Source: Aestuariimicrobium kwangyangense DSM 21549 (GTDB lineage: Bacteria > Actinomycetota > Actinomycetes > Propionibacteriales > Propionibacteriaceae). Taken from it: DNA of 64,000 nt. The stretch lies in NCBI RefSeq assembly GCF_000421525.1, contig NZ_ATXE01000004.1, forward strand, positions 248,001 through 312,000, read 5' to 3'. Positions 19,586-56,423 of the stretch are shown here, piece after piece. The notes under the pieces were generated by a model that saw only the letters and a list, made by a program, of their open reading frames with translations, ran no database searches and was not told the origin of the DNA. Position numbers and translations under genes: made by a program. The number at the start of each line of letters is the position of its first letter. The first letter of the stretch is position 1.

Positions 19586-19666
19586 GGCGATCCAAAACCG
19601 TGCCGCGGCGATGAACGTGAGCCGCCACGTGCCACATCTGGCGGTCAACGACGGTTCTGGATCGCC
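19586..19666 (+). repeat. 80-bp element with 16-bp terminal inverted repeats (copy 1)
   Basis: The left end GGCGATCCAAAACCGT (19586-19601) is the reverse complement of the right end ACGGTTCTGGATCGCC (19651-19666) with one mismatch. An inner hairpin (CCGCCA at 19622-19627 with TGGCGG at 19639-19644) sits between. It aligns without gaps over its length to copy 2 at 20691-20770; the ends and an inner GCCGCCACG-like block are shared. It lies between the convergent PAP2 and DUF559-like genes and could also end transcription. No target-site duplication is visible. Confidence 0.75.
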
Positions 19667-19673
19667 CGCCCCG

Positions 19674-20567
19674 TCAGATGACCCGCACGCCGCGCTCGCG
19701 CTGGCGGTTGAGCAGGGCCAGGACCTCCCTCATCACCAGAGCGGGTTCGGTCCTGATGCGCGTGGGCGTCACGTAGATGACTCTCCAACCCGCGCCCTCC
19801 AGGGCGTTGTGGCGGCGATAGTCCATCGCAATGGCATGATCAGAGGAGTGCCACTCGTCACTGGCCACCTCCACGATCCTGCGAACTCTGACGAAGACCG
19901 CATCGCCGAAGTACGTGCTGCCGTCGATCAGCAAGCGGTGATTGCCCCGCCACCCACGCAGGCCCCACCTTCGAAACATGCGGTGCAACTCGAGTTCGGG
20001 GTGTGACCACGGGAACGACCTGAGCTCCAGCGCAAGCCGCTCCCACTCCTTCCTCAACCCGTACGGTGCGATCGCCGCCGCTGTGCGCAGGTCGGAGGGC
20101 TGGAAGACCCTGTCGCGGAAACCTCGGAATGCCAACTCCAGGTCGCCTCGCGTGCCCGACCAGAGAGCCCCCGCAGGCGGGGTCAACGTCCGAACCACGG
20201 TGTCGGACTGCAGTAGACCATCGGGCCATCGCATGCTCGAGAGGGTGACGCCAGCAGGAGCGGTCCGGTGGAGTCGGGGCAAGGTCGCCTCGACGTCGCT
20301 GATCGGGACGGATGGCCAGTGGGTCAGGCGCGCGGCAGACCGGCCGAGCAGGACCGCGTTCGGCTGCCACAGCGCGAGGGCACGAGTGAGGGTGGCAGGA
20401 TCGTCGGCCAGGGCTGACGCGACAACCACTCCCGGGAACGGTCGCTTGCACTCGCCGGACCTCACCAGGCGACGCGCCTGTTGGGCGAGGTGTGGCGCGT
20501 CAGCCAACCGCAGACAGCCCCCGCGCCGCCGCAACTCCGAGACGATCTCCGGTTCACGATTCACCAT
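19674..20567 (-). CDS. DUF559-like (restriction-endonuclease-fold) protein with AbiEi-like N-terminus
   Basis: This 297-residue protein has a winged-helix-like N-terminus (LRRRGGCLRLADAP...RRLVRSGECKRPFPGVVV), as in AbiEi-type antitoxins and the many actinobacterial DUF559 proteins. Its C-terminal domain resembles the Vsr/restriction-endonuclease fold. Likely active-site residues are in the segments LELHRMFRRWGL, YFGDAVFVRVRRIVEVASDEWH and RRHNALEGAGWRVIYVT. The first acidic position usually found as D in this fold appears as GDAVF here, so catalysis is possible but unproven. The ATG at 20567 was chosen as the first start. The gene is enclosed by two related palindromic repeats, described separately. 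No cognate toxin or antitoxin gene is adjacent. Confidence 0.72.
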   Translation of the reverse strand: MVNREPEIVSELRRRGGCLRLADAPHLAQQARRLVRSGECKRPFPGVVVASALADDPATLTRALALWQPNAVLLGRSAARLTHWPSVPISDVEATLPRLHRTAPAGVTLSSMRWPDGLLQSDTVVRTLTPPAGALWSGTRGDLELAFRGFRDRVFQPSDLRTAAAIAPYGLRKEWERLALELRSFPWSHPELELHRMFRRWGLRGWRGNHRLLIDGSTYFGDAVFVRVRRIVEVASDEWHSSDHAIAMDYRRHNALEGAGWRVIYVTPTRIRTEPALVMREVLALLNRQRERGVRVI

Positions 20568-20690
20568 GCCCCGACTGTGCGGATGAGAAGGGCCTCGTGC
20601 TCCGCGGGCGGCTCAGGCTGTGGACAGTGCCCCTGTGGGTGCCTCCCACCCAGGGCTTGACCTCCTTGTCGGTTCGTGTCCAGCCGGTGA

Positions 20691-20770
20691 TCGATCCAGA
20701 CCCGTGCCGTGGCGCGGTTTGTGGTCCGCCACGAGCAACAAATCCCGACCCATCACGGTTCTGGGTCGCG
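20691..20770 (+). repeat. 80-bp element with terminal inverted repeats (copy 2)
   Basis: The left end CGATCCAGACCCGTG (20692-20706) is inverted at the right as CACGGTTCTGGGTCGCG (20754-20770) with a few mismatches. A perfect inner 7-bp stem, CGTGGCG (20708-20714) with CGCCACG (20727-20733), is present. Copy 1 and copy 2 have the same length, spacing and orientation, so they are direct repeats about 1.1 kb apart that enclose the DUF559-like gene. A separate small hairpin (TGGGTG 20636-20641 with CACCCA 20647-20652) lies between copy 2 and that gene's start. Confidence 0.72.
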
Positions 20771-23798: not shown

Positions 23799-24446
23799 AT
23801 GCCCACCCCACGCGTCCCCCTCACCCGATCCCGCGTGCTCGCGTCCGCCATCACGCTGGCTGACGCCGAGGGACTCGAGGCCGTCAGCATGCGCCGGCTC
23901 GCGGAGACGCTGTCGGTCGTCCCCATGGCCCTCTACAAGCACGTCGCCGACAAGGAAGACCTGGTCAACGGCATGGTCGACACCGTCATCGAGGTATTTA
24001 CGGCGTCGGAGCCTGCCTCCGATGACTGGCAAGGCGTGGTCAGAGAGCGGACGATGGCTGCCCGCGCCGCGGTGCTGGCACACCCGTGGCTGCGCCGCGC
24101 GATCGAGACGCGCACCACCCGGACGATCGCAGTGCTCAGACACATGGAGGCACTGACCTCGGCGATGTTGGCCGGCGGGATGGACGCGAATCTGGTGCAC
24201 CACGCCATGCACACACTCGGGAACCGCATCTGGGGGTTCAGCCCTGAGATGTTCGACGAGACCCGTCAACCCACGTCCAAGCAGGCCGGGCCACCACCTG
24301 ACCCCTCGGAGTTCCCGGGCATCATGGCGGTGGCCATGGACGCGCAGGAGCGGCGTCCCGGAAAGGGGTGCGACGAGGAATTCGAATTCGAGTTCGCCCT
24401 CACCCTGATCCTTGATGGAGTTGCGCGGCTGGCTGCGACCGAATGA
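23799..24446 (+). CDS. TetR/AcrR family transcriptional regulator
   Basis: This 215-residue repressor has an N-terminal helix-turn-helix: VLASAITLADAEGLEAVSMRRLAETLSVVPMALYKHVADKEDLVNGM (motif spread over about residues 14-60; recognition helix around SVVPMALYKHV). Its C-terminal ligand domain belongs to the TetR_C class (WLRRAIETRTTRT, HTLGNRIWGFSPE, FEFALTLILDGV). The ATG at 23799 follows an AGGAGA ribosome binding site. It probably represses itself and the divergent DUF4386 gene through the two palindromes between them. The ligand is unknown. Confidence 0.92.
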   Translation: MPTPRVPLTRSRVLASAITLADAEGLEAVSMRRLAETLSVVPMALYKHVADKEDLVNGMVDTVIEVFTASEPASDDWQGVVRERTMAARAAVLAHPWLRRAIETRTTRTIAVLRHMEALTSAMLAGGMDANLVHHAMHTLGNRIWGFSPEMFDETRQPTSKQAGPPPDPSEFPGIMAVAMDAQERRPGKGCDEEFEFEFALTLILDGVARLAATE

Positions 24447-24519
24447 TGGCTGCCATGCGGCGGTGATTCGAGTCTCCTGTGCCACAGAAAATGTCAGAGG
24501 CTGCGCGCAGAATGAGGTC

Positions 24520-25926
24520 ATGGGGATGGCCACCGACGACGAACTCACCGACCAGATGCTTCGCGGCATTCTGGACGAAGCGGTCGTCGCCTCGAATCGA
24601 CGACGTCGCGCCGAGGCGGACGAGCTGGTCCACGCCCTTCACTTCGCCGAAGCCTGCGCCTCACGTCGGAAGGGGGACGAGGACCGCGAGCGCCGAACGC
24701 GGTTGGCCAGCGATGGCACGCCCGAGGTGCCTGAGTTCTGCCACCTGGAATACGCGGCGCGACTGGGAATGCGTCCGGAGTCGGGATTCTCGGTCATCGC
24801 CATTGCCCTGGACCTGCACCATCGCTTCCCCGAGGTGTGGGATCTCGTCCACCGTCTGAGCATGCCCGTCTGGGTGGCGAAGAAGGTGGCCCACGCCACC
24901 ACCGAATTGCCGCTGGACCAAGCGCGGCGCCTGTCGGCCACGTTGCCGGCCGAGTGGCGACGGCTGTCCCCCACGGCCTTCATCGAGCACGTCAAAGCCT
25001 GCGTACTCATGCTCCAGGCCCCGCGCGAGGTGGCGGCCGGCGACCAGGAGTTGGCGAGTCGCGGCGTCGCCTTCGTCCAGAATCAGCACACGACCGAGCT
25101 GCACGCGCGACTCTCGAAGGCCGACGCTGCCTTCCTGGACGCACAGCTCAACAGGTTGGCGACCGAACTTGGACGCGCCGGCGACACCAGCAGTCGAGCG
25201 GTGCGACTCTCGAAGTCCTTGGGGCTGCTGGCCACGCCGGCGCGCGCCCTGCAGATCCTTCAGGGCGCGATCGCTGACGAGACCGACGTCCTGCCGTCGG
25301 GGCTCGAGACCGAGGAACAGCGGGAGTGCCCGTCGACAGGCTTCCGGGGTCATCTGTGCGGACAGGTGACAGTTGATCCCGACCGTCTGCTCCCCACGAT
25401 GGAGCTCGTGGTGCACATCGCCCAGGACGCGCTGACGAGCGGGGACTCCGCGGTGGCGCGCACGTCACACTTCGGACCGCAGTCGGCCGCGACCGTGCGA
25501 CAGTGGCTGGGCCACGGCCGGGTCACCGTCCGCCCGGTACTGGACACGGCGTCGGTGCTGCCGTCCAGTGCCTACGAGGTGCCCGGACGGATGCGCGAGT
25601 TGCTCGATCTTCGGAACCCGACCTCAGTGTTCCCCCATTCGACCAGACGATCGAGGCGCCTCGATCAGGATCACACCGTGCCCTATTCGACGAGTGGGCC
25701 TGCGGGGCAGACCCGCCCCGACAACCTGGGGCCACTCACCCGCCGCGAGCATCGAGCCAAGACCCTCGGCGGGTGGCGGGTCACCCAGACGAGTCCCGGG
25801 GTGTTCGAGTGGGAGTCGCCTCTGGGCTATCGCTACATGCGCACTCCGGATCACACCTCCATGGTGAAGGATCCTGATGCACAGTCGTGGGTGGAGCGGA
25901 TGCTGGTGGCGTTGCTGCGGACGTGA
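24520..25926 (+). CDS. HNH endonuclease, DUF222 (13E12 repeat) family
   Basis: This protein of about 468 residues combines an N-terminal DUF222 helical domain (YAARLGMRPESGFSVIAIALDLHHRFPEVW..., HVKACVLMLQ) with a C-terminal HNH nuclease domain. The HNH segment reads LDQDHTVPYST...RPDNLGPLTRREHRAKTLGGW, giving the expected His, Asn and His. The zinc-binding Cys pairs of some relatives are absent. DUF222/HNH genes are highly multiplied in actinobacterial genomes and are thought to be mobile or selfish, although their biological role is unclear. Either ATG 24520 or ATG 24526 may be the start; the latter is better spaced from a GAGG sequence. Confidence 0.85.
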   Translation: MGMATDDELTDQMLRGILDEAVVASNRRRRAEADELVHALHFAEACASRRKGDEDRERRTRLASDGTPEVPEFCHLEYAARLGMRPESGFSVIAIALDLHHRFPEVWDLVHRLSMPVWVAKKVAHATTELPLDQARRLSATLPAEWRRLSPTAFIEHVKACVLMLQAPREVAAGDQELASRGVAFVQNQHTTELHARLSKADAAFLDAQLNRLATELGRAGDTSSRAVRLSKSLGLLATPARALQILQGAIADETDVLPSGLETEEQRECPSTGFRGHLCGQVTVDPDRLLPTMELVVHIAQDALTSGDSAVARTSHFGPQSAATVRQWLGHGRVTVRPVLDTASVLPSSAYEVPGRMRELLDLRNPTSVFPHSTRRSRRLDQDHTVPYSTSGPAGQTRPDNLGPLTRREHRAKTLGGWRVTQTSPGVFEWESPLGYRYMRTPDHTSMVKDPDAQSWVERMLVALLRT

Positions 25927-56299: not shown

Positions 56300-56423
56300 T
56301 TGCGTGTGGAGCCGGTTGCTCGGCGGCCAAACGTGTCGATCGTGTGCTCCTGCACCAGATGTTCCCTCCCGGGGGCCACGATCGCTGTGACGGCACACGA
56401 TCCGCACGATTGAGCCGCGGGCA

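Follow-up and report, generated by a model that had tools for sequence, protein, structure and literature searches.

The 64,000-nucleotide stretch of DNA analysed in this study (the window) contains two copies of a palindromic element of about 80 bp that enclose a gene for a DUF559-family nuclease, and such palindromes are systematically associated with DUF559 genes, both in this genome and in its relatives. This looks like an unreported mobile system of a nuclease plus palindromes, which resembles REP/RAYT but is based on an unrelated enzyme. Among the explanations considered below, the best one, and in our judgment a probable one, is that the DUF559 nuclease and its own palindromes form a two-part mobile system. 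This is based on the observed bracketing of the gene, the gene-specific arms, the dispersal of the element at a fixed length, its intergenic placement, and the presence of element-free sites in sister species.

Positions of the palindromic elements and the DUF559-family gene in the window
Feature	Position	Strand	Remarks
F1 palindromic element, copy 1	19586..19666	+	Arms 19586-19601 and 19651-19666
F1 palindromic element, copy 2	20690..20770	+	
DUF559-family gene, 297 aa	19674..20567	-	AbiEi_4-like winged helix (N-terminal); Vsr/DUF559 nuclease domain (C-terminal)
F2-type palindromic element	56330..56410	+	Arms AACGTGTCGATCGTGTG / CACACGATCCGCACGAT; 81-column length; between two tandem + strand genes

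A preliminary description of the window had reported two related palindromes of about 80 bp, gapless and in the same orientation, and this was confirmed by alignment of the two F1 copies: ungapped over 78-81 bp, 72% identity over 78 bp, and 56 of 82 positions identical in a wider frame. The terminal inverted repeats of 15-16 bp given there corresponded to the arms of copy 1, a 16-nt inverted repeat with 94% complementarity and a spacer of 49 nt. Copy 1 begins 33 bp past the stop codon of the PAP2 gene, with its other end 7 bp from the stop codon of the DUF559 gene, and copy 2 is located 122 bp upstream of the DUF559 start. Copy 2 ends 13 bp before the start codon of the PIG-L gene; the preliminary description placed it at the PIG-L promoter. 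The sole gene between the copies is the minus-strand DUF559-family gene, the C-terminus of which has a Pfam match to DUF559 (24.0 bits). Because the element recurs across the genome at one fixed length, the similarity of the pair is far beyond chance. The two copies of the preliminary description are therefore real, while a third element in the window, of the F2 type, had been overlooked.

The window's own genome (2.99 Mb) was searched using the arm pattern first, and then a covariance model. The window type (F1) was found in 10 copies with the arms GCGATCCAGAACCGTG, and F2, including the element in the window, in 18 copies with the arms AATCGTGC(C/G)GATCGTGTG. All 28 copies have exactly 81 columns without indels, with the arms at a constant offset, and the arms are more conserved than the centres. 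F1 and F2 differ in their arms and have a loosely conserved inner core in common (half-site about CTSTGGCGSCRAWTGTTGC). All copies are intergenic (tandem gene pairs, 15; convergent pairs, 7; divergent pairs, 6), mostly 15-60 bp past a stop codon, and no common theme was found among the neighbouring genes. In this genome, each F2 arm match with zero or one mismatch was part of an 81-column copy. These matches revealed no bigger element carrying the arms, and the only larger unit observed was palindrome-DUF559-palindrome. The preliminary description had proposed a search for further copies, and would have been refuted if the sequence occurred nowhere else or if the termini were not conserved; this does not hold, as 28 copies with conserved ends, divided between two arm types, were found. 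Searches of the same-genus genome (G001) and of the remaining family genomes sampled gave neither F1 nor F2.

A profile search revealed six DUF559 paralogs in the genome. Listing the neighbours of the 28 copies showed that one of them (DUF559-b), with 43% identity to the window protein (DUF559-a), is bracketed by an F2 pair at C1:1124439/1125745; its DUF559 score of 18.4 bits is just under the cut-off of 20.6. A third palindrome type, with arms of about GAGCTGC..GCACCTGAAC, flanks paralog P4 on both sides, P3 and P5 each have one palindrome type upstream, and P6 has no clear element. Further copies of the P3-type and P4-type palindromes are present elsewhere in the genome. The clustering of copies near DUF559 genes, which the preliminary description had suggested examining, was thus found for the F1 pair around DUF559-a, the F2 pair around DUF559-b, and the third type around P4. 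At the P5 locus (L164; C1:31060-37989), three related palindromes with arms of about TGTCCAGAAATGGSCCC occur at 1263, 3994, and 5735, within 4.5 kb, which suggests local multiplication.

Bracketing in relatives was assessed by a two-sided test, in which the 600 bp upstream of a gene were compared with the 600 bp downstream, both orientations were allowed, and the best match without gaps was scored; a score of 24 or higher was taken as a pass. In the sampled family, 18 of 62 DUF559 loci passed, 16 of them with palindromic matches, and elsewhere in the class 29 of 45 passed, 23 of them with palindromic matches: 39 clearly palindromic loci in family and class. None of 146 control genes of the window's own genome reached this score (maximum, 21). 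When flanks were paired across different loci, the mean score was 14.5 and the 95% quantile was 19.5, and pairings of closely related loci were among the few outliers. The association between palindromes and DUF559 genes is thus systematic. The other 44 of the 62 family loci failed the test. The system may be commoner than counted, since the test did not score three loci (L168, L177, and L183 in G052, G109, and G098, respectively) that have palindromes of 77-79 bp downstream of DUF559 with short, similar arms (TGTGGAAATC..GATCGCCACA). Four loci (L281, L305, L279, and L292) had a two-sided match without clear palindromy by the score used, and two non-palindromic class-level matches (L311 and L282) were judged probable artefacts of locus coordinates or repeated contigs.

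The arms are gene-specific: proteins with identities of up to about 65% (even 60-65%) have unrelated elements, and among the proteins compared, only a pair with 75% identity has arms in common. In contrast to this rapid divergence, several DUF559 loci of one family in class-level genomes (L297-L300 and L289/L313) have related arms across genomes (GATTTCGGTGTAG..; GCGAGCGCTCACTCTTGTACGG..). At two other loci (L142 and L140 in G055 and G121), the DUF559 frame reads through the downstream palindrome, giving 547 aa against about 290; the element lies inside the ORF because there is no stop codon before it.

A concatenated query of elements was compared with twelve genomes, and in nearly every case tested, the DUF559-linked element was dispersed in its own genome. 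Tens of copies were present in most (G092, G063, G053, G004/G044, G069, and G055/G121), the matches being to the genome's own element; copy numbers are roughly half of the match counts, because both strands of the palindromes were counted. Only one match was obtained in G043. The copies in G092, G063, and G053 have a fixed length in each genome (79, 76, and 66 bp, respectively), apart from one G092 copy that is one base shorter, and their flanks are unrelated. Solo palindromes far outnumbered complete units, and there were no internal deletion scars. The insertion sites differ and have no flanking sequence in common; no excess of matching flanks that would indicate target-site duplication was detected in five element sets, and there was no signal of insertion into palindromic flanks. 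Two contigs of the G092 assembly (L225 on C19 and L234 on C11) have the same flanks around slightly different copies of the element, which suggests that two strains are mixed in this assembly.

Empty sites were searched for by comparing the flanks of G092 copies, after removal of the element, with four sister species and G001. Conserved flanking genes without the G092 element were found at three intergenic sites, in G078, G063, or G044. At one of these sites, G092 has one palindrome type, G063 has its own different type, and G078 has none. This pattern looks like lineage-specific gain (or loss) of mobile repeats; the exact junctions could not be read and loss could not be separated from gain at every site, because the intergenic flanks were too diverged. 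The empty-site comparison proposed in the preliminary description, made here between sister species, showed orthologous sites lacking the element.

In the Pfam analysis, the DUF559 match of the window protein exceeded the gathering cut-off (20.6 bits) and was accompanied by a weaker match to MTES_1575 and, below its cut-off, by an N-terminal winged helix of the AbiEi_4 type. An alignment of 25 homologs showed this N-terminal winged-helix region and a nuclease motif (..E..D..ExD..H), in which W-S-x-x-E, D, and E are invariant and H is nearly invariant. The motif residues E, D, E, and H are kept in the window protein, whose ExD reads EVA (EVD in most homologs). Since some homologs tied to abundant elements share EVA, as in the L156 protein, whose genome holds dozens of element copies, we do not call the window protein dead, with its nuclease activity remaining an inference from sequence. 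A profile comparison with solved structures gave matches to the endonuclease-like protein 3hrl and to 3r3p, which is a mobile intron protein of the EDxHD type. For the window protein and the F2-linked paralog, Pfam returned DUF559, MTES_1575, and AbiEi_4 only, with no Y1/HUH transposase. By these comparisons, the protein is assigned as an AbiEi-type DNA-binding domain joined to a nuclease of the Vsr/EDxHD fold, without a Y1/HUH transposase. An AlphaFold model of the window protein made without an alignment was too poor (mean pLDDT, 43) and was not used.

Single-strand folds of the copies were better than those of shuffled sequences, with z values of -4.8 and -5.1 for copy 1, and -2.8 and -2.1 for copy 2. 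Pairing within copies was equal to that between halves of different copies, for both F1 and F2 and for both their outer and inner parts. A covariation test found no compensatory base-pair changes within F1 or F2, and no alternative helix exceeded the column-shuffled controls in a scan. Since the pairing does not covary between copies, the element is unlikely to be maintained as an RNA or hairpin structure; the inner hairpin in the preliminary description is therefore left without support as a maintained structure. A reading as RNA, in which the outer stem of a hairpin would enclose a pseudoknot, was attractive from single copies but was rejected on the same absence of excess within-copy pairing and of helices beyond the shuffled controls, and because Rfam contained no family above threshold for the element. 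When F1 and F2 were compared, both arms differed together, and the arm sequence was constant inside each type. Because the arms change jointly between types without compensating pairs within a type, they look like inverted sites recognised by a protein, for which there are no binding data.

Under the model of a two-part mobile system, the DUF559 gene would form one unit with its own palindromic element, and the winged helix of the protein would recognise the inverted arms of this element. The gene would keep one element just past its stop codon and another upstream of its start, and the Vsr-fold domain may cut or nick at the arms. Short palindromes would be copied into intergenic sites to give tens of gene-less copies per genome, with the whole palindrome-gene-palindrome unit copied only occasionally, and arm sequence and protein would change together, resulting in a private palindrome for each protein lineage. 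The binding and cutting of its own arms by the nuclease, its role in driving the copying, and the insertion chemistry are all inferred, in the absence of biochemical or strain-level evidence of movement. Also counting against the model are the lack of target-site duplication, the 44 family loci that failed the two-sided test, the absence of a clear element at P6, the EVA of the window protein, and flanks too diverged to distinguish loss from gain at every site.

The arms being more conserved than the centres, the intergenic location of 28/28 copies, and the AbiEi_4-like N-terminal domain might also be explained by a regulatory circuit, in which the DUF559/AbiEi-type protein autoregulates through the palindromes and the dispersed copies are selected operators or structural sites. 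We regard this as unlikely: one element lies directly past the stop codon of the gene, most copies follow stop codons instead of being located in promoters, the neighbouring genes have no common theme, and the copies are species-specific, missing from the same-genus genome and from orthologous sites in sister species. A homing-type selfish gene, whose nuclease cuts chromosomes lacking the unit at the target that the palindrome interrupts and whose unit is copied by break repair, would leave solo palindromes as by-products or decayed units. In spite of the use of a Vsr-like/EDxHD fold by known homing endonucleases and the profile match to 3r3p, there is little room for this explanation, since solo palindromes far outnumber units, have one fixed length, and show no internal deletion scars, and since the differing insertion sites have no flanking sequence in common.

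Inverted terminal repeats of 15-24 bp and short gene-less copies are MITE-like, and the palindromes could be the termini of a conventional insertion sequence or MITE that another transposase moves in trans, with DUF559 as cargo or hitchhiker. However, the enclosed gene always belongs to the same nuclease family, the arms differ in almost every lineage, no target-site duplication was detected, and the F2 arm matches revealed no larger element bearing these arms; we consider this explanation very doubtful. A related alternative in the preliminary description was a small element that had moved a gene. This alternative is less likely, because the nuclease family enclosed is constant and the arms vary. 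The two-part mobile system is thus retained as the preferred reading.

REP-type palindromes are common in bacteria. In REP/RAYT and TIRYT/TIRtron, the gene for a tyrosine transposase lies between copies of its own repeat, and the repeats are scattered over intergenic regions near the 3' ends of genes (PMC3733652, PMC8266576). Some REP families, those with CGTC, are described as being without a dedicated transposase (PMC3733652). The DUF559 system is similar to these (REPtron and REPIN/BIME, as well as TIRYT/TIRtron) in its intergenic palindromes near gene ends, its bracketed nuclease gene, and a private repeat for each enzyme. It meets the REPtron criteria of a gene bracketed by its own repeat (controls, 0/146) and of repeats that are intergenic near 3' ends, but not those of a Y1/HUH transposase and a GTAG/CGTC foot tag. 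The enzyme is a winged-helix protein with a Vsr/DUF559-fold nuclease, and the elements measure about 40-97 bp and carry a pair of inverted outer arms, each of 15-24 bp. Neither F1 and F2 nor the elements from other genomes have a conserved GTAG/CGTC tag; a single GTAG next to copy 2 in the window has no counterpart at other copies. Since the enzyme is unrelated and the tag is absent, the system works like a REPtron without being one, and is not REP/RAYT by descent. The REP/RAYT-like reading of the preliminary description was in this sense supported by the bracketing (18/62 and 29/45 against 0/146), the dispersal, and the element-free sites in sister species.

DUF559 proteins have been treated as Vsr-like repair enzymes or unknown endonucleases (PMC12907096). 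The same nuclease domain is found in DUF559/Vsr-like endonucleases (PF04480 and PF18741; VsrA of Caulobacter, PMC12907096), for which the role known or proposed is mismatch (VSP) repair, or else is unknown. No literature linking DUF559 to palindromic repeats was found among openly licensed papers, and a prior description elsewhere is not excluded. EDxHD homing endonucleases are alike in that a Vsr-related fold serves a mobile element, whereas they reside in introns and home to a single site; in the present system, dispersed palindromes bracket the gene and a winged-helix domain is added. MITEs and ERIC-like intergenic palindromes are similarly gene-less, imperfect palindromes of about 80 bp and fixed length, but the present elements showed no target-site duplication and are linked to a specific nuclease gene family. 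We lean, only slightly, toward the broader proposal that there is an actinobacteria-wide class of mobile DNA, not recognised before, in which winged-helix Vsr-fold (DUF559) nucleases spread private palindromes and in which reader specificity and arms co-diversify rapidly. Such a class would be a non-HUH counterpart to REP/RAYT that uses a new transposition chemistry. A widespread, functionally obscure family of DUF559 nucleases with AbiEi-type readers is genetically tied to its own dispersed palindromes, which offers a large class of "orphan restriction-fold" genes a function that can be tested. The system would represent a second, independent enzyme solution for spreading bacterial palindromes, and offers dozens of natural enzyme/site pairs for studying the diversification of DNA specificity.

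Several other origins and matches were rejected. Integron attC core sites (RYYYAAC...GTTRRRY) are absent from the arms GCGATCCAGAACCGTG and AATCGTGCSGATCGTGTG. Viral contigs had neither a match to either arm type nor a DUF559 relative, and plasmids had only chance arm matches and no DUF559 relative. A scan of a genome collection for F2 arms gave six scattered matches, which were in coding sequence with inconsistent spacing and were attributed to chance. The single BLAST match in relatives was inside a coding gene, and covariance-model matches in other genomes of the family (E about 1e-3) were chance or coding by inspection of the sequences.

Two further observations concern the surroundings of the elements. 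A GC-rich inverted repeat, ATACCCCCCGGGGTGTTAT, which an F1 element adjoins, is located upstream of a rhodanese/persulfide-dioxygenase-like operon (L003 1610-1660; C1, about 1035700), and looks like the operator of a CsoR/CstR-type repressor. In the window, a 504-aa ORF (24412-25926) without a Pfam match has an HNH-like motif at its C-terminus, and resembles the multicopy DUF222/13E12-type HNH proteins of actinobacteria.
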